A stretch of DNA of 64,000 nt, taken from assembly GCA_927797885.1 (NCBI GenBank), contig OV696605.1:1215157-1279156 (forward strand), given 5' to 3'. The stretch's first letter is position 1. Every line of letters begins with the position of its first letter. A program made the translations under genes and the position numbers. The notes under the pieces are model-generated. The model was not told the DNA's origin, did no database searches, and saw only the letters and a program-made list of their open reading frames with translations. This DNA is from Gloeomargaritales cyanobacterium VI4D9 (GTDB taxonomy: Bacteria; Cyanobacteriota; Cyanobacteriia; Gloeomargaritales; Gloeomargaritaceae). Below are positions 41,069 to 53,500 of this stretch, in pieces.

Positions 41069-41748
41069 ATGCCAGAAGCCTGCCCTAAATGCGGACATGA
41101 GAACATCATCAAACATGGCTTTATCCTCCAGAAGCAGAGATACAAATGTAAAAGCTGTAACTATCAGTTCACCACCACCAATCGAGAGCGTGGTAAGCCC
41201 AAATGGATGAAGGTCATGGCAATTTTACTCTACGTTAGTGGCTTATCCATGAATGCCATCGCCCAGTTGTTTAATGTTTCTGCCCAGGCCGTACTCAACT
41301 GGGTTAGGGACTACGCTAAGGCTCATTGTGAAAAGCCAGAACCAGGCAGTGCTGTTGTAGTAGGACTTGACGAGTTTTGGCATTTTATTGAGTCCAAAAA
41401 GAAAAGTTATGGATATGGAAAGCTTATGATCGCCATCGAGGTAGACTCATTGACTGGGAACTGGGAGGTCGTGATCGTTAAACTTTGAGGAAGTTGTTAG
41501 ATAGACTAGCACAGTGGCAGGTAACCGTTTACTGTACAGATCATTGGGAAGCCTACGCCAGTGAGCTAGAGGCGCATCAGGTAGAGACAAAGACAGAGAC
41601 AAGGAATGCACAACAATATGGTTGCGCCACGCTTGGCTATCAGATCATCGTCATTGGTTTGCGAGATTTTGTCGTCAGTCCAAGGTGGCCTCCAAAAGTA
41701 AGGAAATGGCTGAATTACAGTCTTTTCTTTTATTATGGGGTACAGTAG
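41069..41748 (+). pseudogene. IS1-family transposase, frameshifted and truncated
   Basis: The first part (MPEACPKCGHENIIKHG) is the IS1 zinc-finger/HTH domain, ending at an early stop at 41486. After a frameshift RKLLDRLAQWQVTVYCTDHWEAY continues the DDE domain. A further shift gives RHWFARFCRQSK and SKSKEMAELQSFLL. The 3' end runs directly into the IS630 remnant at 41738. At least two frame changes make it inactive. Confidence 0.85.
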
Positions 41749-42614
41749 CAACATTTGGCAAACCAATTTGCAAAAGAAGAAGAATTAATTAATAACAAAG
41801 ATGCTTGGATAATTGACTGTATATCCTTTACTGGTGAATCATGAAACTGTCGAATAAAATTCTTTAGAACTGACCACATCATTTCCATTGGATTAAATTC
41901 TGGTGAATACACAGGGAGATACAATAGACGAGCACCGGTCTGGCTAATCATCTGTTGTACTTCTATGGCTTTATGACTATTCAAGTTGTCCATAATTACC
42001 ACCTTCTTCTCATTTAATTTTGGGCATAATTCTGTTTTCACAAATTCTAAAAAATCCTGTTTCTTCATGGAGCCTTTGATGATTTTATGACAAACAACGC
42101 CCTCCACAGATATAGCACCGATTAACGTGTATTTCTGACCCTTGTTTTTCTGGCGATAACTATAAACTTTTTTCCCTTGTAAACTCCATGCAACTTTCCT
42201 CTCCATGCCCTCCCAGGTTGCTGTTTCATCTACGGCAACTATATCTTCGGCTGGAACGCTTCCAATCTTATGCCAGTATCCTAAGCGTTCTGCACAACTT
42301 CACTCTTGGCTTTTTCACTGCGGAATGTCTTTTTTTTTAGAGTGATTTTATGCTTTTTCAAGAAAGAATGCAATGTGCTAATACTCACTTCCTAGCCTTT
42401 CTCCGATTATCTCAACATATTGCCACAAACACTTATCTGGATACTCTTCAACAATGGCTAAAATCTCAACTTGATTTTGTTCTAAAATTCCAACTCGCTA
42501 TGCCTCCGGCACGGCGCAACCTAACATCCCTACTTTCTTAGGTGTTAAGTCTTGAGTCTGTTTATACTGTTGTACGAGGCGATGTACTGTCCTTTTAGTT
42601 ACCAATGGCTTCGC
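41733..42614 (-). pseudogene. IS630-family transposase, frameshifted
   Basis: The C-terminal 157 residues are intact and contain the DDE motifs VIMDNLNSHKA and YLPVYSPEFNPMEMMW. Upstream on the minus strand the N-terminal HTH part (KPLVTKRTVHRLVQQYKQT) can be read but is broken by several stops and a small palindromic insert (GCCTCCGGCACGG). The 5' end is cut by the IS5 terminal repeat at 42615. IS630 elements use TA target sites, as do the family-A MITEs here. Confidence 0.85.
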
Positions 42615-42896: not shown

Positions 42897-43410
42897 GTAA
42901 AATTGTTACCTCTTGAGGCAGTTCTCAAAAGAATTGTTTATGCTCTCTTATTATTTCTAATGATCCCTGATTGTCCCTCAGGCTTGCTTTACTTAAAGTA
43001 GGGATTCCCTAAAGTATCCACCAATAAATGCCGTTTGATTCCGTTAGTGCATTTATAGTGACAAAATCCTTTCGTTTCAATGCCTGCTGTATCTGTGTTC
43101 TTCACACACGTCCCCTATGAGCAAGCTAGGATATTCTTTTTTTTAATCTCTCTCTTTCCATTTTCTCCAATGCTACCAATACCCTTTCCCAAGTGCCATT
43201 ATTTTGCCATCGCCGAAACTGAGAGTACACAGTCTGCCACTTGGGGAAATCTCGAGGCAAGTCTCGCCATTGACGGCCATTTTTGAGCTGATACATGATG
43301 GCATTCACGATGGCATGCCTTGAAACTACATGCTTTTTTGTCTTACTCTTTGGTAGATATTGGTCTAAAATCTCAAATTGTGATGCGCTTAAATCGGTTG
43401 TGTATGTCAT
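42897..43410 (-). pseudogene. IS5-family transposase, frameshifted, interrupted by MITE
   Basis: The N-terminal 94 residues read MTYTTDLSASQFEILDQYLP and contain the DUF4096 HTH region (LKNGRQWRDLPRDFPKWQTV). After a frameshift the minus strand continues VKNTDTAGIETKGFCHYK and GIKRHLLVDTLGNPYF, then another shift gives KASLRDNQGSLEIIREHKQ and ends at the MITE border. The start codon lies about 50 bases inside the right terminal repeat. Confidence 0.8.
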
Positions 43411-43461: not shown

Positions 43462-43694
43462 GCCCAATTGTAGCCCAATTCGTGGTCTAAACTGCCTCAA
43501 TTAACCCCAACGATACCCAACCTGTACTGCACTAAAAATCTTGAAATCCCCTTACTGGTGGCTGAAATGTCTATGGAGCTAAGCTCCATCCAACAGTTCC
43601 GGGTAATGCCGTAATAGCAGGGTTTTTGGGATTGTACTAATTTTTGTGTGCCCCCAAAATGCTCCCCATTTTTGTTGGATGGGGTGAGACTTTT
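43462..43694. other. left boundary zone of the satellite element
   Basis: No gene is visible in these 233 bases. A short direct repeat (TAGCCCAATT, twice near 43461-43480) and a small inverted repeat (TGGAGCTAAGCTCCA, near 43573) occur. This is where the distal attachment site of the element would be expected, but no copy of the tmRNA 3' end was found by eye. Confidence 0.4.
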
Positions 43695-44039
43695 TTAGCG
43701 GTCTTGGGTCAGCAAGCCCTTGATTTTCTCTAGCAGGGGCTTGATGTCTTTGGCCTTGGTCATCCCCAGCGCAGTGTCCAGTAGCTCCACCAGTTCCGCC
43801 CGGTCTGGTTCCGCCTGCAAATTGTCTGTTAACTGGGGGGGCGCAGATGCGTTTTCCCCCAGCAGTTCCCGCCTAGCCGCTTCAGTGATTACCCGCCGGA
43901 GCCATGCGGGACTATCGGGCAAAGACTTAACCAACTGCTCTATATCGCTGGTCACTCGTACAAATAGCCTGCCACTCATGGGCTGGTCACCCTTGGGCTT
44001 GAATGGCTTTAGGTGTCTATTCTGTGGTCGCTCACTCAT
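43695..44039 (-). CDS. putative repressor-like protein of the satellite
   Basis: 114 residues from MSERPQNRHLKPFK; ATGs at 44045 and 44057 are alternatives. The segment SGRLFVRVTSDIEQLVKSL followed by AWLRRVITEAARREL has a short strand plus two helices, resembling a ribbon-helix-helix DNA-binding core, and the C-terminal half is helical. It is transcribed away from the rightward gene cassette, across a gap holding three operator-like repeats. A regulatory role is inferred; no family is firmly recognised. Confidence 0.55.
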   Translation of the reverse strand: MSERPQNRHLKPFKPKGDQPMSGRLFVRVTSDIEQLVKSLPDSPAWLRRVITEAARRELLGENASAPPQLTDNLQAEPDRAELVELLDTALGMTKAKDIKPLLEKIKGLLTQDR

Positions 44040-44051
44040 GGGCATCACTCC

Positions 44052-44160
44052 TGTCAACTCGTGTTAAGTATATCTTATCACCACACTTGTCAACCGATAA
44101 GAAATACTAAACCAAAATACCCTATTTACACTTGTCAACTCGTGTGAAATGGTTTATATT
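44052..44160. promoter_or_regulatory. three operator-like repeats with divergent promoters
   Basis: The motif TTGTCAAC recurs at 44052-44067 (TGTCAACTCGTGTTAA), 44082-44100 (CACACTTGTCAACCGATAA) and 44125-44149 (ends TTTACAC and GTGTGAAA are inverted). Rightward, TTGTCA (44132-44137), a 17-base spacer and TATATT (44155-44160) form a good sigma-70 promoter on top of the third repeat. Leftward, each repeat supplies TTGACA as a possible -35. This is the layout expected for autoregulation of the leftward gene and repression of the rightward cassette. Confidence 0.65.
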
Positions 44161-44266
44161 AAAGATATGGAAGGGAATTAAATAAGCCAGCGGCAAGGCT
44201 AGAAACCGTCCCAGAGGTGACATAGGTGTTACTCCAAGGATGAGACCTTCCATTCCCCAACAAAAC

Positions 44267-44291
44267 GCCCCCGCCGGGTTAGAGCAGGGGC
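44267..44291 (+). other. GC-rich hairpin 1 upstream of first cassette gene
   Basis: GCCCC (44267-44271) pairs with GGGGC (44287-44291). It is followed by an A/T-rich stretch, an AGGAG ribosome binding site and ATG at 44323. This is the first of a series of similar hairpins in this element. Confidence 0.55.
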
Positions 44292-44322
44292 AAAATTCAA
44301 CAATCACTAATAGGAGTTTGCC

Positions 44323-44718
44323 ATGAAAACCAAGCTACACGCTAGAGTGCGGTCTATCAGTTCCACCATGTCCTGGGTGCGGTGGTCGCCCCGCATCGGT
44401 TCCATTGAGGATATTGAGCGGCGGAAGTCCATCGCCTATATCGGGTTTGACTGCAAGGAAAAGGCTGAGAAATTCTACAGCCACGTTTTGAAGCGGCGCC
44501 CGGATTGGAAATGGAAGTCCTACCCGGAGCAGGTTAACGGGCAATTTGACGGGGAAGGCATCACCCGCCCCCGCAAAAGTGAGCGGTTAACCGAATATGC
44601 CTACGAGATCAAGTGGCACCGGCCGCCGCTTGAGTTTATTGAGGGCTTAATCCGGTGGGATAACGGTGATGATATTGCCGGTCACGAACTTACGCAACTG
44701 GCATATCGCAACCGCTAA
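44323..44718 (+). CDS. satellite protein, unknown (131 aa)
   Basis: 131 residues, rich in Arg, Trp and Lys, for example KWKSYPEQVNGQFDGE and YEIKWHRPPLEFIEGLIRW. No family is recognised. It is the first gene of the rightward cassette, and TAGGAG lies 8 bases before the ATG. The basic N-terminal part (MKTKLHARVRSISS) could bind nucleic acid, but this is a guess. Confidence 0.65.
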   Translation: MKTKLHARVRSISSTMSWVRWSPRIGSIEDIERRKSIAYIGFDCKEKAEKFYSHVLKRRPDWKWKSYPEQVNGQFDGEGITRPRKSERLTEYAYEIKWHRPPLEFIEGLIRWDNGDDIAGHELTQLAYRNR

Positions 44719-44726
44719 TGCACACC

Positions 44727-44750
44727 GCCCCTGGCACTACCGCCGGGGGC
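44727..44750 (+). other. GC-rich intercistronic hairpin 2
   Basis: GCCCCTGGC (44727-44735) pairs with GCCGGGGGC (44742-44750) around ACTACC. It lies between the 131-residue gene and the next start codon at 44775. Confidence 0.65.
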
Positions 44751-44774
44751 AATTCACCTAATGGAGATTCACCA

Positions 44775-44900
44775 ATGGCTACCCGCAAACGGACTACTAA
44801 ACCGACACCTGCACAGAATCAGGAATCCAAGCCACTGCCCAAACCTGCACAAAAACCCGCTACTGATTGGTGGGAAATTCTCAAACAATTTGAATGGTAA
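44775..44900 (+). CDS. tiny satellite protein (41 aa)
   Basis: 41 residues, MATRKRTTKPTPAQNQ near the start and WWEILKQFEW at the end. It has a basic, proline-rich N-terminus and a short aromatic C-terminal helix. An ATGGAG Shine-Dalgarno sits 8-13 bases upstream. The next gene begins 13 bases after the stop. Function is unknown. Confidence 0.5.
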   Translation: MATRKRTTKPTPAQNQESKPLPKPAQKPATDWWEILKQFEW

Positions 44901-44913
44901 ATGGAGGATTGCA

Positions 44914-45078
44914 ATGGAATTTGAATCTGATTTGATTGTTGACGGCACTACAGAATTAACCCCGGATCAGGAGTATGAAATGTGGTGCCATTACTGGGAT
45001 ATGCACCGTGAGCAACTGTTAGCCGCCTGGGGTGTTGAAACCCTAGAGGAACTGGAAATGCTTGGTCACGATTGGTAA
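44914..45078 (+). CDS. small acidic satellite protein (54 aa)
   Basis: 54 residues, strongly acidic (MEFESDLIVDGTTELTPDQE at the start, EELEMLGHDW at the end). A GGAGG ribosome binding site lies 6-7 bases upstream of ATG. No family is recognised. Very acidic small proteins in phages are sometimes DNA mimics, but nothing here proves that. Confidence 0.55.
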   Translation: MEFESDLIVDGTTELTPDQEYEMWCHYWDMHREQLLAAWGVETLEELEMLGHDW

Positions 45079-45086
45079 CGGCAATG

Positions 45087-45112
45087 CCCCGCCCGTCACC
45101 CGATAGGCGGGG
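45087..45112 (+). other. GC-rich intercistronic hairpin 3
   Basis: CCCCGCC (45087-45093) pairs perfectly with GGCGGGG (45106-45112), in the gap before the Rad52-like gene. Confidence 0.65.
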
Positions 45113-45165
45113 ATTGTCTGCATTGTCCATACAACGTTAAACCCTACACAATGGAGTCTAAAACC

Positions 45166-45582
45166 ATGACGTACACCACCGTTAAACCGCCTGCAAATGC
45201 CCCCACCGCCCCGGGGGAATGGAGTTTATCCCAAGTGATTGAAGCCCTATCTAAACCGCTCCCCAGTAGTGTTTTAGAAACCAAAAAGTTAGGGGGTAGG
45301 ACTATCACCTATATCCCCTGGCACCGGGCGGTTTTGGTGCTGGATAGATACGCTCCCGGCTGGCAATTCAGGATTACCAATGTCTCGCAAATTGGCGGGG
45401 AATTGATTATGACCGGCTCGTTATCAATTCCCACTGCTGACGGGATTATTACCCGTGAGAGTACCGGCTCTGAGAAGGTGGATACCAGCGGCTACGGGGA
45501 AACGGCGGCTAATGCTGAATCCCAATGTTTCCGCCGGTGTTGCGCCCGGTTTGGATTAGGGCTGTACCTGTACCAACGCTAG
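45166..45582 (+). CDS. Rad52/Sak-type single-strand annealing protein
   Basis: 138 residues from MTYTTVKPPANAP. The order LSKPLPSSVLETKK, TYIPWHRAVLVLDRYAPGW and the C-terminal ETAANAESQCFRRCCARFG matches the Rad52/Rad22 domain used by phage annealing proteins (Sak type). Such proteins anneal complementary single strands during phage recombination. ATG 45166 is preferred because GGAG lies 8-11 bases upstream; an in-frame ATG at 45151 overlaps that site. Confidence 0.75.
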   Translation: MTYTTVKPPANAPTAPGEWSLSQVIEALSKPLPSSVLETKKLGGRTITYIPWHRAVLVLDRYAPGWQFRITNVSQIGGELIMTGSLSIPTADGIITRESTGSEKVDTSGYGETAANAESQCFRRCCARFGLGLYLYQR

Positions 45583-45592
45583 ATAGCCGTCC

Positions 45593-45619
45593 TGGGGGCT
45601 GGACGTTAAACTGCCCCCA
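45593..45619 (+). other. GC-rich intercistronic hairpin 4
   Basis: TGGGGGC (45593-45599) pairs with GCCCCCA (45613-45619). The loop contains GACGTTAAACT, a sequence nearly repeated in hairpin 5. Confidence 0.65.
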
Positions 45620-45652
45620 TTCCTTATACACCTTGAATTTTGGAGATTACCA

Positions 45653-46036
45653 ATGGATTTGAGTTTAGCTAGTCGCATTCGAAAAAGCGCCCACCAGGTG
45701 CAATCACTGCTAGGCATTTTCCACAGTGGCACCGTTGCCCCTGAGACTGTGGAAAACCTGATTATCCCCACCTTGGAATCAATGCACCGGGAATTATTAG
45801 CGGTTGCCGTAGCCCTCAATAATGACAATTGCCCGGTTGATTTATCCGATCCCTATCTCAAACGTCATGCGGCAAGATACCTTCACCCCACCCTTGGGAG
45901 TGACTCAATTTGGCGGGTTGCCAGTTACTTGGATATGCTACCGCCTGGGCAGAATACCGTCCCGGCGGAGATTGCCCACCGGGTTATGGAGATTCTTTCA
46001 TTGGTGGAGCCGGAGCCGTCCGAAAGTCTCGGTTAA
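45653..46036 (+). CDS. satellite protein, unknown (127 aa)
   Basis: 127 residues, mostly helical (MDLSLASRIRKSAHQVQS, then ESMHRELLAVAVALNN), ending in an acidic SLVEPEPSESLG tail. TTGGAG lies just upstream of the ATG. No family is recognised. It lies between hairpins 4 and 5. Confidence 0.6.
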   Translation: MDLSLASRIRKSAHQVQSLLGIFHSGTVAPETVENLIIPTLESMHRELLAVAVALNNDNCPVDLSDPYLKRHAARYLHPTLGSDSIWRVASYLDMLPPGQNTVPAEIAHRVMEILSLVEPEPSESLG

Positions 46037-46046
46037 TTTGCCGCCC

Positions 46047-46071
46047 TGGGGTATGGCGTTAAACTGCCCCA
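46047..46071 (+). other. GC-rich intercistronic hairpin 5
   Basis: TGGGG (46047-46051) pairs with CCCCA (46067-46071). The surrounding sequence CCGCCCTGGGG ... GCGTTAAACTGCCCC closely copies hairpin 4. Confidence 0.65.
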
Positions 46072-46105
46072 ATTACCCTGTTAACTGTTGTTTTGGAGGT
46101 TCTTT

Positions 46106-46447
46106 ATGTCTGCAATTGATTGGCATTTTTTGGGCAGTGATGCTGACCGTTTGGGGTTTGTCGAGAATGTCCTAGCGGTTGCGCCCCTGGTTTGCGAACG
46201 GGGGGATAGTCTGCAACAGGCGGCTATGGCTAATCTGCTGATCGCCGCCCATGAGGTGATACAACACCGGCGCGAACATTCCGCCACCAGTGCGACCGCT
46301 CACCCCGAATGTCGCACCCTGGCAGATATGGTTACGCCTGAACGCCTGGAAGAATTGAAGCAGGAGTTTGAACAGGCGGTAGCAATGGGTGAACAGGTCA
46401 AGGAATGGTGGGATTCCCAACACCGCCCCGACCCCGACCAGCAGTAA
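46106..46447 (+). CDS. satellite protein, unknown (113 aa)
   Basis: 113 residues from MSAIDWHFLGSDADRLGF. Two helical parts flank a Ser/Thr/Ala-rich linker (EHSATSATAHPECR), and the C-terminal helix is acidic (EELKQEFEQAVAMGEQVKEW). TTGGAGG lies about 7 bases upstream of the ATG. Last gene of the rightward cassette; function unknown. Confidence 0.6.
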   Translation: MSAIDWHFLGSDADRLGFVENVLAVAPLVCERGDSLQQAAMANLLIAAHEVIQHRREHSATSATAHPECRTLADMVTPERLEELKQEFEQAVAMGEQVKEWWDSQHRPDPDQQ

Positions 46448-46455
46448 CCACGATT

Positions 46456-46490
46456 CCCCCGCCGTCCCTTGATGGTGGGGGTTTCCCATC
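46456..46490 (+). terminator. hairpin ending the rightward cassette
   Basis: CCCCCGCC (46456-46463) pairs with GGTGGGGG (46474-46481), followed by TTT. It lies 9 bases past the last stop codon and is the best candidate for the cassette terminator, although the T run is short. Confidence 0.5.
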
Positions 46491-46771
46491 TAGTCACGCT
46501 ATATCCCGCCCTATCTCACGTCAGGATGAATCCTACAGCCAACAAAATTCAGGCACCTTCTAGGGCATTTTAGCGGGGGTTATTTTGCGTACTCAAACTT
46601 TTGCGTAGTCATAGCCTGCCCTGCGCTGATCCTCTGCATCCTCTAGCTTGGTCAGTGGACGGGCTTGAGATTCGGTTTCCGGTTTGGGACCAATTGGTCC
46701 CAAATTTTCCAAGATTTTTGTTGCCTGTATCAATCTATTGGCATGACGGTAAACCATCCCCCACCGCTCTG
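46491..46771. other. gap between convergent satellite arms, with 22-bp perfect palindrome
   Basis: No convincing gene. The main structure is a perfect palindrome at 46683-46704 whose left half is TTTGGGACCAA. It lies about 70 bases beyond the end of the leftward terminase-like gene and could stop transcription from either side or bind a dimeric protein. Confidence 0.55.
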
Positions 46772-47209
46772 TTACATATCAGGGGTGTTTGGCAATTTTG
46801 GATCAGCAATCCCATAGATTTTTTCCCTGATCTGACGGATTACATCCTGATTCAGTACTCGCCCTTCGGTGGGAGCAGGTGTAGCCGCCTGGGTCACAGA
46901 TTCCCGAATTAAAGTTAGCCATTTGATAGCGAGTTCCGCCCGTTTCAGTGGCACAATTTCGGGGTCAACTAATGCGCTTTCAATGGTCTCTAAGGCAAGG
47001 TCACACACTCGACGTACACGATGGCTCCTAGCTTCTAGTCCCTCCCCCGTCTGTTCTGCGAGATATTCCTTCCATGCGGGTAACTTTTTCCATTTGCAGA
47101 GAGAAACTTTAGAGACTTCCAAATAACTGCTGATCCGACTGAGCGGCCAGCCGTCCAGCACCAGGTCAGCAGCCCGCCGTTGCAAATCATCTAAGCCCCG
47201 GTCTAGCAT
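46772..47209 (-). CDS. HTH protein resembling phage terminase small subunit
   Basis: 145 residues. Residues about 5-60 (LQRRAADLVLDGWPLSRISS, then LEVSKVSLCKWKKLPAWKEYL) form a helix-turn-helix as in phBC6A51/TerS-type DNA-recognition proteins. The middle is a long helical oligomerisation-like region (ALETIESALVDPEIVPLKRA). In satellites a separate TerS redirects the helper phage packaging motor. That job is inferred from context. No large terminase subunit is present. Confidence 0.55.
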   Translation of the reverse strand: MLDRGLDDLQRRAADLVLDGWPLSRISSYLEVSKVSLCKWKKLPAWKEYLAEQTGEGLEARSHRVRRVCDLALETIESALVDPEIVPLKRAELAIKWLTLIRESVTQAATPAPTEGRVLNQDVIRQIREKIYGIADPKLPNTPDM

Positions 47210-47244
47210 CCTTAACCTATTCTTAACGTTTGGTTAATTTCAGT

Positions 47245-47607
47245 TTAACCGATGGGGGTCAGGGTCACGGTGCAGGATGGGACTCCCCGTTTCCATCGGG
47301 CAGTCAGTTCCGGCAAGACCTTGAGATTGTCGTCAACTAAAATTCCTGCTTGCACCAACACATCAAAAACTGAGCCACACCAGTTATCAATGTCGCCCCG
47401 ACAACTGGGTGAGATTAGCAGTATTTCCACTGAATGAGGATCGCTGATGGGGATTTGTAGATTCTGCGCTTTCGCCTGTGCCACCAGTAGCGGTGCTGAT
47501 TCTCGCTTCCAGTGAACATACTTAGGTGGTAAATGCGCCCATCCGTTCCGCACAAACCGGGGGCGGGGCTTCGGACAGGCTGGGTAGGGCACATCAAAAG
47601 TGATCAT
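47245..47607 (-). CDS. RusA-family Holliday junction resolvase
   Basis: 120 residues, the usual RusA size. The catalytic pattern is visible in CRGDIDNWCGSVFDVLVQAG followed by ILVDDN, which supplies the conserved Asp residues and the DN pair. RusA cuts branched DNA in phage replication and recombination. It overlaps the 52-residue gene upstream by 14 bases. A Rad52-like annealing protein lies in the opposite arm, so the element carries a small recombination kit. Confidence 0.75.
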   Translation of the reverse strand: MITFDVPYPACPKPRPRFVRNGWAHLPPKYVHWKRESAPLLVAQAKAQNLQIPISDPHSVEILLISPSCRGDIDNWCGSVFDVLVQAGILVDDNLKVLPELTARWKRGVPSCTVTLTPIG

Positions 47608-47752
47608 CTGGGTACTCAGATTGAAACGCGCTTAGCGCATCCTGTTTGGCTAACTCATCACGAATTTGCCTTAAGATTTTTTGCTGAAATTCAAGTCGAG
47701 TGAGTGGGATTAATTGGGTTATTTGTTGAATGGGCGGGGCTTCATTTTTCAT
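47594..47752 (-). CDS. small satellite protein (52 aa)
   Basis: 52 residues, MKNEAPPIQQITQLIPLTRL near the start and acidic at the end (SEYPDDHF). It is short but has a proper ATG, and its end overlaps the RusA start by 14 bases, as expected for coupled genes. No strong Shine-Dalgarno is seen (GGGGG about 10 bases upstream). Function unknown. Confidence 0.5.
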   Translation of the reverse strand: MKNEAPPIQQITQLIPLTRLEFQQKILRQIRDELAKQDALSAFQSEYPDDHF

Positions 47753-47799
47753 GGGGGTTTGGGGGCGGATTACACTTTGATTTTAACTGGTAGGTTTTA

Positions 47800-48144
47800 T
47801 TAGAATTTCACCTTGAATTTACGGCCTTTGGGTCGTGGGGTTTTGGTTTGTTGGTCGAGTGTTGCCAGCCAACGATCCACCAGCAGGGACTGTTGAAACT
47901 CATTCACCTTCGCCTGCTTCACCGCCGTACTCCCCACACCGACCACCTTCGCCGCCCTAGTAGCAGATTTGCGCTCCTGCTCCCGTAGCTCCCTTAACCC
48001 ATCCTTAACCTTTTCGTCTAGTTGGGACGCTGGCGTCCCAGCCTGAAGTTTTAGTTTAGGAGAACCTTCTTTTTCCTTTCCTTCAAGCCGTCCCGATTCT
48101 ACTTGCCGTTGTTTTGCTTCTTGGGCATAGATATGGTTCCCCCC
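47800..48144 (-). CDS. start-less open frame continuing the upstream gene after an in-frame TAG
   Basis: An open frame of about 114 codons with no ATG, GTG or TTG near its start. It begins directly after the TAG at 48145-48147 and is in the same frame as the gene before that stop. It reads GGNHIYAQEAKQRQVESGRL and ends KTPRPKGRKFKVKF. The part RKSATRAAKVVGVGSTAVKQAK resembles a small HTH found in phage replication or partition proteins. A run of seven G follows the TAG. It may be the lost C-terminus of a pseudogene, or be made by stop readthrough. Confidence 0.45.
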   Translation of the reverse strand, partial: GGNHIYAQEAKQRQVESGRLEGKEKEGSPKLKLQAGTPASQLDEKVKDGLRELREQERKSATRAAKVVGVGSTAVKQAKVNEFQQSLLVDRWLATLDQQTKTPRPKGRKFKVKF

Positions 48145-48594
48145 CTAAAACGGTGTATTCAAGTCTGTTGGCGGTGGTGCTACGACTTGCCAGTTAGCCG
48201 CATCCACCGTGTAGCAATAGTCATCCTTCCGGCTCTTGGGAGTTTCAATGACTAGGCGGGTGCCGTTTTCCCAGACAAGTTTCACCGTAGCTTGAGTGCC
48301 GACCGGCCATAATTGAGCTTCCCAGCAGTGGCGGTTAACCAGTCGGATTGTGTCGCCGGGTTTAATGCTTATGTCATCCCCAGCGGACGTTTCTGCCGTT
48401 TTCAAATTGGTTTCATCTTTGTAAGGTTGGTCGGACGTTTCTGCCGTTTTCACCTGGGGAGCAAATACAAGCCACTGACCGTTAACCTGTAGCTCCACCA
48501 ACCCCGTTGCCGTATCTTTGCGCCGGGCGGTTACGACCCCGCCACCGTATCCTGCGCCCACCCGGGGAACATTAAAAATACTCATATCTGCCAT
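48145..48594 (-). CDS. satellite protein of unknown function, ends at in-frame TAG
   Basis: 149 residues from MADMSIFNVPRVGAG (ATG 48594; a second ATG at 48585). The start overlaps the primase stop codon by 23 bases. The middle (DDISIKPGDTIRLVNRHCWE through VKLVWENGTRLVIETP) looks like a small beta-barrel. Two copies of a KTAETS segment are visible. It ends DLNTPF before TAG, and the frame stays open for 114 more codons. Confidence 0.6.
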   Translation of the reverse strand: MADMSIFNVPRVGAGYGGGVVTARRKDTATGLVELQVNGQWLVFAPQVKTAETSDQPYKDETNLKTAETSAGDDISIKPGDTIRLVNRHCWEAQLWPVGTQATVKLVWENGTRLVIETPKSRKDDYCYTVDAANWQVVAPPPTDLNTPF

Positions 48595-51418
48595 CCTCAT
48601 CATCGGGAATAAAATGCTCGTCATTTTGTTGGGTGGGAATTTGGAGATCAGGGTCACCAGGGTCACCGTGTACTGCATCTTGACCGTCTAAGCCCGTATT
48701 TATAGGAGTTTTAGAGTGGTGACCCTCCCCGGTGACCCTATTAAGTGGGGAGTCCCCACTATCGGGGTAGGGGTCACCGTTTGGTGGAGTCTCCAAAATT
48801 TTTTGTGTGGGAATTTGGGAAATAGGCTTCCAAGGCTTCCGTTGTACTGCATCTTGGTTATTTTGCCCCGTATTTATCGGCATTTCCGGCTTGGAAGTCT
48901 CCCCACCTGGTAGGGTTCCAGTAGGGTTCCAACAGGGTTCCATAGCCTTCCGGTCGGTGGGGTTCTGGAAGCCTATGGAAGGCTCCTGGAACCCTACTGG
49001 AAGGCTATTGTCCGGGAAGGCTTCCAGACTGGAAACTTCGATAAAATCAGGGTTTTTATCCTCACTTGCAGTACGTTGGAAGCCTTGGAAGGCTATTTTG
49101 GAAGTCTCCACAAAATTTATTCCTGCGAGTGCGGTTCTTTTTACGTCCTTGCCGTCCGGGTCGGTGTAACGGATAGCTACCCGCCGCACCTTCGGGAACA
49201 GTTCGGTAAACCGCTGTAGGACTTGGTGGCTGGCAGTCACGCATCGGTCACCGTTGCCTGGGTGTTCCCAGTTCCGCTTTTGGCCGCCCCGCTGTCCCTG
49301 CTCGATAGTCAGGTAATTTTCCTGTATGTACCAGGCTTCCAGTCGCTCCCAGAGTTCGGTTACGGAAACCATGCCGTCCGGGTCTTCAACCAGCCCAGTA
49401 TCTTCGCAGAACTGCACCAGGTGACTGCTACGGCGGCGCAGTTCATCAATCTGATCCGCCACCGGACTGTAGTCTATTCCCTCGGTCGCCACCGCCTGGA
49501 GTTTTACGAGTAGCAGATTCAGCAGTGCGGGGAGTATTTCCCGGTCAATGAAGTTGGGGTCATCCTTAAACCTGGGGTCTGCCAGCAGTTCCCCTTTGGC
49601 GGGGTCGGGGTTAGCCTTGTAGGTCTTGGTGAAGGGGATGATGGCGTAGCGGCTCTTGATCGCTTCCGTTGCCGCCGTCATGTTGGGTGGCTGATTGCAG
49701 TTGAATAACAGCACCGCCTGGGGGGTCATGCGCCGTTCCTGAATCCCCTTCCGTTCAATACTGATAGGGTCGCCGGTGGTTACCAACTTTAGCGACTCGA
49801 TGCGGTCTAATTTCCCGGCGGGTACGGTTTCACTAGGCCAGTTGACCCGTGAGTGTTCCAGGTCGGCTAACCCGAATTTGCGCCCAGCGTCATAGGCTTG
49901 GAAGTCGCTTAAGCTAACGGCGGTACAGCCCCGTCCCCCAAATAGCCGGAATACCGCTGTCCTAATAGCGTCCTTCCCGTTTGCGCCGGTGCCATAGAGC
50001 AGTACCGTTCTGGGGGTTCTGGCTTTGCGTTTCCTAATGGCTGGCAAGTCTAGGGAACACGCCAACGTCCTAATTAAAATCTCTCTTGGTTGCGGCTCTA
50101 GGCATTCCAACAGGCGGTTTAACGCCGTGCTATCAGCCTGCGGGTTGTAGGTTGCCGCCGGGGGGTCAATAAATATAAGGTCAGGGTTGTGGGGTAGCAG
50201 TTCCGTCCGTAGCGTGTTCCCGTCCCACTCCCAGCGCAGTACCCCGTTTTTGCAGTTGTAATGGTTCGCCGGGTTCACCTGCTCCTGTGTAATCCCCGTT
50301 GCGAGTTTCTGCAATTCCAGTATGTTTTTAATAACGCTAGGGCTAAATTTGCGCCCCCGGCAATAGGCGGTTATCCGGGCTAACTCCAGATCGTCCGGGG
50401 TTAGCTCGTAATGGGTTCCCACCCAGCGATAAAGGTCACGCTGGTTTAGTGTGATATATCGCCCTTCTGAATACAGGCTATCTACCGCCTGCTCTAGGAA
50501 GGATAAATTATCATCCTCTTGCTTTGAAACGGCAGAAACGTCCGGCTGACAAGACATAACGCTTTCCCGCCGGTCGCTAATCGCCCCTAGAATCCGGGCT
50601 TTAATGGCGGCATTATCTAAACCTTGGTTGCGTAGATCGGCGATCCAGTCGGCTAGGTCGTAACCATCGCTAGGCTTATTCCACTGGTCAGCATCCCCGG
50701 CATACAGCCACCGGGTCGCCCCAAAAGTTTTTGCCACCTGGTCAGCATACTGCAAGCCCTTATCGTCACGGTCGGGGCAAATAACCAGGCTGGCACCGGC
50801 TATATCCTGCGTGTAATTGCCGTATCGGGTAAACCCGCCACTGCCACCGATGGATGTGGTAGTCGCTAGTCCTATTTCCCATAGCAGATCGGCGGTAGCT
50901 TCCCCTTCGACCCACAGGATGGGTTCCCCCTGGGCAATCGCCGCCCTAACATTCTTATGCCGGTAAACGGGGATAAGGGAGCGGTCTAAGTCACCTAACC
51001 CCGGTTGCCATTGTTGCCCGTCCCACCGTTGCTGATAAAACTCTTTAGTCCCGTCTCCCCGGTCAACACGCTTAACCCGTACCAGGGGGTTCCCGTTGCG
51101 GTCAGGGTAATAGTAGATTTTTTCCGACTTTGGGCGGGGCGGTTTCTGCCACCGTTCCCGTTGCTCCAGTGGTTGGTGAATTCGGAATAACCCCCACCCT
51201 GCGCCATCGGTGGTATGCCCAACACAAGCCCATTCTTGTCCGTCTGCACCCCTGAGAGTCTCACCGGGTTTGTACTGCTGATAACTGTGGCAAAATACCC
51301 GGTTATCACTCGTCACCCGGCAATCGCCGTCTTTAGTGCGCCCACAGACTGGGCATGGATTCTTAGGACTGGATGCGGTAAATTGTACTGCATTTTGTCC
51401 GTTAAGTGCGTGTTGCAT
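48572..51418 (-). CDS. P4-type primase-helicase (satellite replication protein)
   Basis: 948 residues. A zinc-finger-like motif (CPVCGRTKDGDC, Cys22-Cys33) is followed by a TOPRIM-like primase part (about 166-240, WVEGEATADLLWE and VICPDRDDKG). A D5_N/P4-type SF3 helicase (about 430-600) has Walker A GTGANGKD and sensor region LLFNCNQPPN. The usual Ser/Thr after the Walker lysine is Asp483. Residues about 780-948 are a low-complexity tail with a duplicated segment (PINTG ... QDAV ... QIPTQ at 847-871 and 905-930). Such proteins start replication of P4-like satellites at their own origin. Confidence 0.88.
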   Translation of the reverse strand: MQHALNGQNAVQFTASSPKNPCPVCGRTKDGDCRVTSDNRVFCHSYQQYKPGETLRGADGQEWACVGHTTDGAGWGLFRIHQPLEQRERWQKPPRPKSEKIYYYPDRNGNPLVRVKRVDRGDGTKEFYQQRWDGQQWQPGLGDLDRSLIPVYRHKNVRAAIAQGEPILWVEGEATADLLWEIGLATTTSIGGSGGFTRYGNYTQDIAGASLVICPDRDDKGLQYADQVAKTFGATRWLYAGDADQWNKPSDGYDLADWIADLRNQGLDNAAIKARILGAISDRRESVMSCQPDVSAVSKQEDDNLSFLEQAVDSLYSEGRYITLNQRDLYRWVGTHYELTPDDLELARITAYCRGRKFSPSVIKNILELQKLATGITQEQVNPANHYNCKNGVLRWEWDGNTLRTELLPHNPDLIFIDPPAATYNPQADSTALNRLLECLEPQPREILIRTLACSLDLPAIRKRKARTPRTVLLYGTGANGKDAIRTAVFRLFGGRGCTAVSLSDFQAYDAGRKFGLADLEHSRVNWPSETVPAGKLDRIESLKLVTTGDPISIERKGIQERRMTPQAVLLFNCNQPPNMTAATEAIKSRYAIIPFTKTYKANPDPAKGELLADPRFKDDPNFIDREILPALLNLLLVKLQAVATEGIDYSPVADQIDELRRRSSHLVQFCEDTGLVEDPDGMVSVTELWERLEAWYIQENYLTIEQGQRGGQKRNWEHPGNGDRCVTASHQVLQRFTELFPKVRRVAIRYTDPDGKDVKRTALAGINFVETSKIAFQGFQRTASEDKNPDFIEVSSLEAFPDNSLPVGFQEPSIGFQNPTDRKAMEPCWNPTGTLPGGETSKPEMPINTGQNNQDAVQRKPWKPISQIPTQKILETPPNGDPYPDSGDSPLNRVTGEGHHSKTPINTGLDGQDAVHGDPGDPDLQIPTQQNDEHFIPDDEDGRYEYF
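48651..48778. repeat. iteron block I (GGGTCACC) with 17-bp palindrome
   Basis: GGGTCACC occurs at 48651 and 48660, its reverse complement GGTGACCC at 48718 and 48731, and GGGTCACC again at 48771. Between them lies the palindrome AGTGGGGAGTCCCCACT (48744-48760). The block is inside the 3' part of the primase gene. It looks like binding sites for a replication protein. Confidence 0.65.
48826..49107. repeat. iteron block II (AGGGTTCCA / TGGAAGGCT), candidate replication origin
   Basis: Around 48913-49007, four 9-bp copies of AG(G/C)(G/C)TTCCA, the last ending TTCCG (AGGGTTCCA three times, then AGCCTTCCG), face four copies of TGGAA(G/C)(G/C)CT (TGGAAGCCT, TGGAAGGCT, TGGAACCCT, TGGAAGGCT) across a 13-base spacer. 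Spacing within each block is 10-11 bp, one helical turn. Further GGCTTCC/GGAAG(G/C)C copies lie at 48826, 48835, 49016, 49020, 49079 and 49088. Inverted, phased iterons beside the primase-helicase gene are what a P4-type origin would look like. Confidence 0.65.
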
Positions 51419-51455
51419 GGTAGGATACTCCTAGAGTTTTTGTTTTGAACTAAAC

Positions 51456-51490
51456 GCCCCCCGGAGCCGCCGCCCTGGGGGGCAATTTTT
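51456..51490 (-). other. GC-rich intercistronic hairpin between alpA and primase
   Basis: GCCCCCC (51456-51462) pairs with GGGGGGC (51477-51483). On the plus strand it is followed by seven T, so it would terminate rightward transcription. In the leftward mRNA it lies between alpA and the primase start, like the hairpins of the opposite arm; the flanking GCCGCCCTGGGG is shared with hairpin 5. Confidence 0.6.
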
Positions 51491-51493
51491 TTG

Positions 51494-51673
51494 TTAATCC
51501 GTCCCCAATCGGCTCAGCCAGGCGTTAATATCGCTCGACTTCCAGGCCACCGCACGAATCCCAATCCGCACGGGTTTGGGAAATCGGTTCAAACTTGCTA
51601 ACCGGTAGACTGAACTTCTGCTCAGCCCAACGTACTCAACCAATTCATTAATCTTCAAGAGTTTCTCCGGCAT
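51494..51673 (-). CDS. AlpA-family transcriptional regulator
   Basis: 59 residues from MPEKLLKINELVEYVGLS. The short winged-helix pattern SRSSVYRLASLNRFPKPVRI followed by AVAWKSSDINAWL is the AlpA/excisionase-like MerR-type HTH of satellites and prophages. AlpA-type proteins activate excision and integrase expression. Longer in-frame starts exist (51706, 51748); GGGGGCG 6-7 bases upstream favours 51673. It sits just downstream of the integrase gene, the normal place in Gram-negative PICIs. Confidence 0.8.
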   Translation of the reverse strand: MPEKLLKINELVEYVGLSRSSVYRLASLNRFPKPVRIGIRAVAWKSSDINAWLSRLGTD

Positions 51674-51722
51674 TTTTTCGCCCCCAATATGTTGATTAAG
51701 TCTCATCAAAGCCTGCCTGCAA

Positions 51723-52934
51723 CTAAAAGTCAGGGTTGACCAGGTCAACCCTAACTGACCTGAGCCGGTCTAAATAATCTGCCCAGTCCCGCATCATCTT
51801 GTGTCGTTCCCGTAAAAATTGTGTGCGGTTATAGGCTCTCCCTAACGGGTCTTTGACGTTATGCCCTAGTTGATGTTCGATGAGTTCCACCCGGAACCCG
51901 AGGTGTTCATCGAGTAATGTTCTAGCGGTCGCCCTCCAACTATGCCCGGTCATAATTTCTTTGGGGATTCCCAGGGTACGCAGTGCCGCCAGAACTGCGC
52001 CATCACTCATCGGGCGGCCACCACCCCGGCCACTGGGGAACACAAACTCGCCCCGCCCGGTGATGGGCTGTAGCTCCTGCAACAATGCCACCACCTGTTC
52101 CGCCAGCGGTACGATGTGGGGCTGTCCCGTTTTGCTGAGATTAAACCGCCATTCCCGGGCTGACCAGTCAATATCCGCCCATCGCATAGTCCTTAATTCC
52201 CCCGGTCGGACAAATACATACGGTGCGATTTTTAGGGCAGTACACACCACTGGGAACCCCGAGTAGCTCCAGACCAGTTTAAGAATCTGTCCTAGTTGCT
52301 GGGGGTCGGTCACGGCGGGGAAATGGTGTTTTTGCACTGGCGGTAATGCCCCCCGCAGGTCATAGGTAATGTCCCGTTTCGCCCGTCCCGTTGCCACCGC
52401 ATATCTCCACACCTGGCTACAGATATTTAATTCCCGATGGGCGGTCTCCAGACTGCCCCGCTGTTCCACCCGCCGGAGCGTCTGCAACAGGGTCACGGCA
52501 TCAATATCCCCAATGGGTTGCGCCCCCAGCCAAGGGAAAATGTCCCGTTCTAGCCTGCGTAAAACCGTTTCCCCATGACTGGCCGCCCACTTGGGAGAAT
52601 GCTTGATGAACCATTCCCGAGCGACTACTTCCAGTGTGGATTCCTGCGCTATTTGCGCTTCCTTGAGGGCTTGCCGTTCCGCACTAGGGTCTATCCCCTG
52701 CGCCACTTTAGAGCGAATCTCATCCCGCCGCTCCCGTGCCACCTTTAGGCTGATCTCCGGGTACGTCCCCAACGATAACCGCTTCTCTTTGCGCTCCCAG
52801 TAATACTTGATGCGCCACCGCTTCCCGCCCTCTGGGGTCACTTCCAAGTACAGCCCCCCAGTGTCATAAAACCGGGTGACCTTCTCCACCGCCCTAATCG
52901 CCCGTATCGCCGTATCCGTCAGCCCTTTGCCCAT
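51723..52934 (-). CDS. tyrosine integrase, P4 type
   Basis: 403 residues. The N-terminal arm-binding domain (DUF4102, about 3-85, LTDTAIRAIRAVEKVTRF) is followed by the core-binding and catalytic domains. Catalytic residues are Arg243 (VRPGELRTMRW), His331/Arg334 (GHSWRATART), His354 (IEHQLGHN) and Tyr368 (RAYNRTQFL). P4-type integrases use tRNA or tmRNA 3' ends, and this gene begins about 165 bases from the tmRNA 3' end. It starts the leftward arm of the satellite. Confidence 0.93.
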   Translation of the reverse strand: MGKGLTDTAIRAIRAVEKVTRFYDTGGLYLEVTPEGGKRWRIKYYWERKEKRLSLGTYPEISLKVARERRDEIRSKVAQGIDPSAERQALKEAQIAQESTLEVVAREWFIKHSPKWAASHGETVLRRLERDIFPWLGAQPIGDIDAVTLLQTLRRVEQRGSLETAHRELNICSQVWRYAVATGRAKRDITYDLRGALPPVQKHHFPAVTDPQQLGQILKLVWSYSGFPVVCTALKIAPYVFVRPGELRTMRWADIDWSAREWRFNLSKTGQPHIVPLAEQVVALLQELQPITGRGEFVFPSGRGGGRPMSDGAVLAALRTLGIPKEIMTGHSWRATARTLLDEHLGFRVELIEHQLGHNVKDPLGRAYNRTQFLRERHKMMRDWADYLDRLRSVRVDLVNPDF

Positions 52935-53101
52935 CTGGGGATAACCACGCAGTACAAAATTTTTTCTGCCCCTAACCTTATCCCTAATTTTAGGGGATAA
53001 CCTGGGATGCCGTGAGACCTTACAAGATGAAGGGGTAATCTAAAAGTGGCTCTGGGCGGGGCTTTCAGGACTTAATGAGATGGTCTGAGATGGGTTTAAG
53101 A
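52935..53101. promoter_or_regulatory. integrase control region and probable attachment side of tmRNA
   Basis: A near-perfect inverted repeat (TTATCCCTAA ... TTAGGGGATAA) lies around 52979-53001. The sequence GATGG occurs three times at 10-11 bp spacing just before the tmRNA 3' end (GAGATGG, GAGATGG, AAGATGG). These could be integrase or AlpA sites. No good Shine-Dalgarno is seen before the integrase ATG. Confidence 0.5.
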
Positions 53102-53500
53102 TGGAGCCGAGCGGAATCGAACCGCTGTCCGTATCGGGTATTGACGTCCCACTCATTCACAGGCATAGGTGCCTTGACCCAGACACCAGGAGCCAGTTTT
53201 GTCCCAAACTGACCAGGGGCTTACGGTTAAGGCTTAGCTAACCAGCAACCGCACAAATCCAGTTAGCGCAACCGTTGGGGGGATACGTTCTGGGATTAAC
53301 GGTGTCACCTCAGAACGCCTCGAAGTCGGTCTAGTTCTAACTAGGGACTCTTAGGCAGCCACAACGGCCGCTTTACGAGCAAAAGGAACAATGTTGTTCG
53401 CAGTTACGTTGGTTTGAGCCTGGATTTACGAGAGTGGACTCCCTCTCGGCCTGCATCACAGGATGCGCGTTCGCCGACACGTCGAAACCATTACGGCCCC
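53102..53500 (-). ncRNA. ssrA: transfer-messenger RNA (tmRNA)
   Basis: On the minus strand the RNA starts GGGGCCGTAATGGTTTCGAC and ends CGGTTCGATTCCGCTCGG followed by CTCCA. The acceptor stem GGGGCCG pairs with CGGCTCC, including one G-U. The tag frame reads ANNIVPFARKAAVVAA and stops at TAA (about 53357), the cyanobacterial type. CCA is not encoded and must be added after transcription. It rescues ribosomes stalled on broken mRNAs. The integrase gene directly follows the 3' end. Confidence 0.96.

Follow-up and report, generated by a model that had tools for sequence, protein, structure and literature searches.

A probable phage satellite of PICI-like build at the tmRNA gene of a Gloeomargaritales cyanobacterium, with a twin at tRNA-Ala in the same chromosome

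Introduction

P4-like satellites and islands of the CP4-57 type carry AlpA, use a tRNA or tmRNA gene as target and have iterons near or within the replication gene. Integration is likewise tRNA-linked in the tycheposons. To our knowledge, cyanobacterial phage satellites have been little described beyond marine picocyanobacteria, and a literature search that did not reach most subscription journals retrieved no paper on the lineage studied here. Tycheposons are cited in PMC11389934 as proposed cyanobacterial satellites. The PICMIs of Vibrionaceae comprise about six genes; the prototype, PICMI115, lies downstream of fis and yielded no terS homolog, and a virulent phage, instead of a resident prophage, may serve these elements as helper (PMC10803314). 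Gram-negative PICIs such as EcCIMP1 (PMC11773190) are compact elements in which int is followed by alpA, a primase and a TerS-like gene, with no structural genes.

This last build is also that of E1, an element located at the tmRNA gene (ssrA) of Gloeomargaritales cyanobacterium VI4D9, within a window of 64,000 nucleotides (the whole stretch of DNA analysed; contig OV696605.1, positions 1,215,157 to 1,279,156). We consider E1 a probable integrative satellite of phages, PICI-like in build, and a member of a modular family present in this genus of cyanobacteria.

Results

Ends, target and gene content of E1

E1 is bounded at both ends by copies of a 12-bp attachment core and leaves ssrA intact, with the element at the 3' end of the gene (Table 1). 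In the relative G003 the ssrA and tRNA-Ala sites are both empty. A comparison with a relative lacking the element had been proposed as the way to find its exact limits, and the empty site in G003, together with the att core, moves the left end from the predicted 43462 to 43573. Two transposase-like ORF fragments (41733-42206 and 43126-43410; IS630-type and IS4/IS5-type, judged by eye) stand beside this end, between the tRNA-Ala flank of E1 and the host genes.

Table 1. Positions of E1, its attachment sites and its genes in the window.
Feature	Position	Strand	Evidence and remarks
Host DNA outside E1	43529-43572	.	In G003 directly behind tRNA-Ala
E1, whole integrated element	43573-53112	.	9,528 bp plus one 12-bp att core copy
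Distal att core ATGGAGCTAAGC	43573-43584	+	tRNA-Ala type
Distal gene, 120 aa, possible regulator	43695-44057	-	No family match
Conserved 131-aa protein	44323-44718	+	Homologs in E2, E3, E4, E6 and the G004 tRNA-Arg element
Sak/Rad52-like single-strand annealing protein	45151-45582	+	Pfam SSAP_Sak 3.7e-4, score slightly under the Pfam cut-off; PHROG 659
Small gene, 127 aa	45653-46036	+	E1 and E2 only, among loci compared
Small gene, 119 aa	46088-46447	+	E1 and E2 only, among loci compared
TerS-like HTH protein, 145 aa	46772-47209	-	Pfam Terminase_5 E=5e-4
RusA Holliday-junction resolvase	47245-47607	-	Pfam RusA E=7e-9
177-aa protein	48145-48678	-	100% identical in E2; no family match
Primase-helicase, 948 aa	48572-51418	-	DUF5906; PHROG 864/6088 DNA primase; TIGR01613, below the curated cut-off
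Exchanged cassette: primase C-terminal tail and iterons, candidate replication origin	48690-49182	-	Sharp identity drop to E2
AlpA-family regulator/excisionase	51494-51748	-	Pfam Phage_AlpA E=1.3e-16
Tyrosine integrase	51723-52934	-	Pfam Arm-DNA-bind_3, Phage_int_M, Phage_integrase; 100% identical in E2
Proximal att core ATGGAGCCGAGC	53101-53112	+	ssrA type
tmRNA gene ssrA, target site	53102-53500	-	ARAGORN and Rfam RF00023

The leftward genes of E1 follow the order int, alpA, primase-helicase, 177-aa gene, small genes, rusA and terS-like, with int and alpA adjacent and overlapping at their ends; the rightward arm holds the gene of the 131-aa protein, small genes and the Sak/Rad52-like annealer, and a conserved leftward gene of 120 aa is the last at the distal end, with homologs in the elements E2, E3, E4, E6, E8 and the tRNA-Arg element of the congener G004. 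All genes that the original prediction had named in the two arms are thus present on the strands claimed, and its central statement, an int-alpA-primase order with a TerS-like gene in a discrete element at ssrA, is supported. What it had described as a split gene is, by contrast, the intact 177-aa ORF, which overlaps the variable tail of the primase.

Among the E1 ORFs searched, no match was obtained to capsid, portal or tail families, nor to a relaxase or transfer gene, and every terminase match falls on the small HTH protein, in agreement with the predicted lack of structural genes. Neither structural genes past the boundary nor relatives with these genes unlinked were seen. PADLOC reported no defence gene among the window proteins scanned.

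A twin and a wider family of elements

The genome encodes the integrase of E1 in two copies that are 100% identical. The second copy belongs to E2, an element of 9.2 kb at tRNA-Ala(GGC) (~2,715.5-2,724.7 kb of the same chromosome), and two further elements of this genome reside at tRNA-Gly(CCC), here E3, and at tRNA-Gly(UCC). Congeners carry others, at tRNA-Ala, tRNA-Val and tRNA-Arg in G004 and at ssrA in G006, so that the linked order that had been proposed as a search target in relatives is indeed present at other tRNA/tmRNA genes. Both ends could be located in six elements, which are 8.2, 8.6, 9.0, 9.2 (E2), 9.5 and 10.2 kb long; E1, at 9.5 kb, is of typical size and not unusually small, as had been thought.

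The modules of the family keep their order, and int and replication genes are swapped among elements. E3, for instance, has in common with E1 the rusA, terS-like, Sak, 131-aa and distal genes, and differs from it in integrase and replication module. Beside its primase, the element at tRNA-Gly(UCC) has a topoisomerase-like gene (L017:7127-8188; PHROG 6247, E=2e-54), an unusual cargo for a 10-kb island.

Sak relatives were found in 45 of 390 cyanobacterial genomes. At twenty Sak loci of other cyanobacterial genera the full E1 gene order is absent from all, and the distal gene is present as well in those of G119 and G160 only. In G119, three loci (L240, L241 and L242) have a Sak homolog near distal-gene homologs, and what surrounds them otherwise differs from the E1 family.

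One integrase, two targets

The tmRNA molecule mimics tRNA-Ala. In this regard, the 12-bp core reads GCTCGGCTCCAT in ssrA and GCTTAGCTCCAT in tRNA-Ala, a difference of two positions, and since the integrases of E1 and E2 are 100% identical, one recombinase serves both genes, which have the acceptor end in common. Targets were assigned to 99 related integrases; the most frequent were tmRNA, with 42, and tRNA-Ala, with 18. A quick tree of related integrases shows at least nine changes between the two, a parsimony count that is not firm, many branches being weakly supported. Together, the target counts and the tree indicate that switching between tmRNA and tRNA-Ala is recurrent in this integrase family, of which the E1/E2 pair is the most recent case.

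Swapped attachment halves

The copy at ssrA starts with an ssrA-type core and ends with a tRNA-Ala-type core followed by tRNA-Ala flank: over 56 bp, core included, the distal flank of E1 is 98% identical to the DNA abutting the empty tRNA-Ala of G003, a match found nowhere else among the loci searched. Reciprocally, E2 at tRNA-Ala starts with a tRNA-Ala core and ends with an ssrA-type core. Simple integration is ruled out, since it would have left ssrA flank at the distal end of the ssrA copy. The likeliest reading of the arrangement is a single reciprocal recombination between the inverted E1 and E2, which would invert 1.447 Mb.

An assembly artefact, in which a crossover between the near-identical copies flipped the segment and both copies stand, we regard as unlikely, though the stretches shared by E1 and E2 (3.9 kb at 99.9% and 1.2 kb at 99.6%) exceed short-read length, and neither the gene order of the relatives, too scrambled for such a comparison, nor the flat GC skew is informative on the inversion. 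That the genome is a single contig may speak against a misjoin. A real exchange should leave a swap that is reciprocal throughout, as seen here, but this argument is weak since a misjoin predicts the same. In G003 and G004 the host sequences that flank the two copies lie far from ssrA and tRNA-Ala. The GC content of the genome is ~53%.

A 118-bp match of the E2 distal flank to the ssrA region of G003 was discarded as evidence of swapped flanks, being a dispersed repeat with dozens of copies. This MITE-like sequence (ends TATAGTC...GACTATA; L010:770-887, equal to C1:2724769-2724886) recurs at dozens of places in G000 and G003. Just past the distal core of E2, ~40 bp resemble the int-proximal end of another element (L010:668-712; C1:2724667-2724711), as if an older element might once have stood there in tandem.

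Cassette exchange and a candidate origin

E1 and E2 are ~100% identical from int to ~49182 and over most of the rest, and differ in four sharp cassettes. The largest covers the C-terminal tail of the primase, and the two proteins diverge at the passage from the helicase part to this tail. In E2 the cassette contains 11 GGTGACC/GGTCACC motifs inside 300 bp, of which E1 retains 5; in E1 it contains a palindromic block (arms 48803-49115) with 8 motifs of the TGGAACCC/GGCTTCCA type. Shuffled sequences never gave more than 2 iteron motifs, far below the counts of either element. Judged from its sequence, the cassette fits an exchanged unit of initiator tail and origin, and would be the candidate replication origin.

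The cassette around rusA of E1 is 98.7% identical to E3 and only ~81-85% to E2, which implies that resident elements have traded DNA. We tentatively propose, as a possibility short of an even chance, that co-resident satellites swap a compact cassette, made up of the tail of the replication protein and the iteron origin within its coding sequence, which sets their replication compatibility, that two satellites otherwise identical can thereby share one cell, the one at tmRNA and the other at tRNA-Ala, and that recombination between them rearranges the chromosome on the megabase scale.

The TerS-like protein and the search for a helper

Alone, the TerS-like protein of E1 reaches 1e-3 against PHROGs, and a homolog 36% identical to it matches TerS PHROGs at 8.5e-8; the best-scoring homolog matches four TerS families. 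The gene stands behind rusA in E1, E2, E3, E7 and the tRNA-Arg element of G004, and no recognisable counterpart was found in E4 and E6. NCBIfam made no call on the E1 protein, and HTH domains of this kind occur in transposases too. The AlphaFold model of the single sequence (mean pLDDT 54) was too poor for a fold search, and a PDB sequence search with the family gave weak matches only, one of them to a phage protein (2ao9, E=0.32). The remote profiles and the conserved position suggest that this protein may act in packaging. In the G004 tRNA-Arg element a stop or frame change interrupts the gene (L057:8719-9391); the genes around it look open.

Ranked by query coverage, the annotated entries of the phage collection nearest to the primase belong to Streptococcus satellite phages (23% identity). 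Relatives of the TerS-like protein and the primase were encountered neither in the genome contigs scanned nor in IMG/VR viral contigs, and neither TerL (two families) nor HK97 capsid genes were detected in seven genomes of the genus. As a consequence no helper is visible; it would be virulent, unsampled, or equipped with other terminase and capsid families.

Discussion

Several lines of evidence converge on a satellite: (i) the exact ends and the empty site in a relative; (ii) a common build in elements of 8.2-10.2 kb at ssrA, tRNA-Ala, tRNA-Gly, tRNA-Val and tRNA-Arg; (iii) the int-alpA-primase set, with a P4-type primase domain and relatives in Streptococcus satellite phages; (iv) the match of the TerS-like family to several TerS profiles and its position behind rusA; and (v) the lack of structural genes among the ORFs searched, iterons far above those of shuffled sequences, and a twin that differs in discrete cassettes only. 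The remoteness of the TerS homology, the lack of a TerS-like gene in E4 and E6 and the invisible helper weaken this reading.

The same weak points, namely the TerS assignment, E4 and E6, and the failure to find helper prophage genes in the genus, would suit a phage-independent, plasmid-like integrative element that spreads by transformation or rare mobilisation and whose TerS-like gene is an HTH regulator only; an element of that sort would need no more than the int-alpA-rep-ori set. We judge this quite unlikely, given that the TerS-like gene stays behind rusA even though the integrases are unrelated, that its best-scoring homolog matches several TerS families, and that no relaxase or transfer gene turned up among the ORFs searched. 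Descent from a prophage that lost its structural genes, to which the phage-type integrase, primase, annealer and resolvase genes might point, is very improbable, because decay would not yield the same remnant repeatedly, and the independent tRNA/tmRNA insertions are alike in compact size, ends, gene order and mostly open frames.

For E1 as a satellite, the findings allow us to propose a model. A helper phage would switch on AlpA, and AlpA together with Int would then cut the element out at the 12-bp core of the acceptor end. The primase-helicase would bind the iterons inside its own 3' coding region and replicate the circle, recombination intermediates would be handled by Sak and RusA, and the TerS-like protein would steer the large terminase of the helper to package the element. 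In a new cell, Int would insert the element at ssrA or tRNA-Ala, the acceptor ends of the two being almost alike. Induction, origin function and packaging, and with them PICI-like function, are inferred by analogy.

E1 and E2 amount to a natural experiment in one chromosome: they share an integrase, differ in candidate origin and carry swapped attachment halves. Three questions can now be put to the test: does the Rep-tail/iteron cassette determine the compatibility of satellites, by what means does a single integrase recognise both tmRNA and tRNA-Ala, and how frequently do satellites rearrange the chromosomes of cyanobacteria? Rearrangements driven by prophages and satellites have already been reported, as cited in PMC12863080, so that the inversion would be a clear example and not a new principle.

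With respect to Gram-negative PICIs (PMC11773190), E1 differs in a TerS that is only remotely similar, in having no visible helper, in carrying Sak and RusA, in its divergent rightward arm and in its cyanobacterial host. Measured against the traits that define PICIs, it has int with an adjacent alpA and no structural gene among the ORFs searched, it possesses a primase-helicase gene, with an origin suggested by iterons alone, and its TerS matches are to remote profiles, strongest in a homolog. E1 agrees with PICIs in genomic traits, may do so in function, and is not a proven PICI.

E1 resembles P4-like satellites and CP4-57-type islands in the P4-type C-terminal domain of its primase, in AlpA, in its tRNA/tmRNA target and in its iterons. 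However, the primase scores 76.7 bits against TIGR01613, whose curated threshold for the P4 family is 108.7, the E1 ORFs searched gave no match to sid, psu or delta families, and tests of P4-family membership were negative; in this sense, the architecture expected of a P4/PICI-like satellite holds and membership in the P4 family is not supported. With PICMIs (PMC10803314), E1 has in common a co-localised int-alpA-prim set and the lack of capsid remodelling genes, but it is larger (at least ten genes), lies at ssrA/tRNA-Ala, includes a TerS-like gene and gave a negative result in the PICMI gene-set test. Finally, it is like the tycheposons, cited in PMC11389934, in being a proposed cyanobacterial satellite, a likeness drawn by description alone. 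Phage satellites, including proposed cyanobacterial ones, are already known, and the E1 family would add a variant to them.
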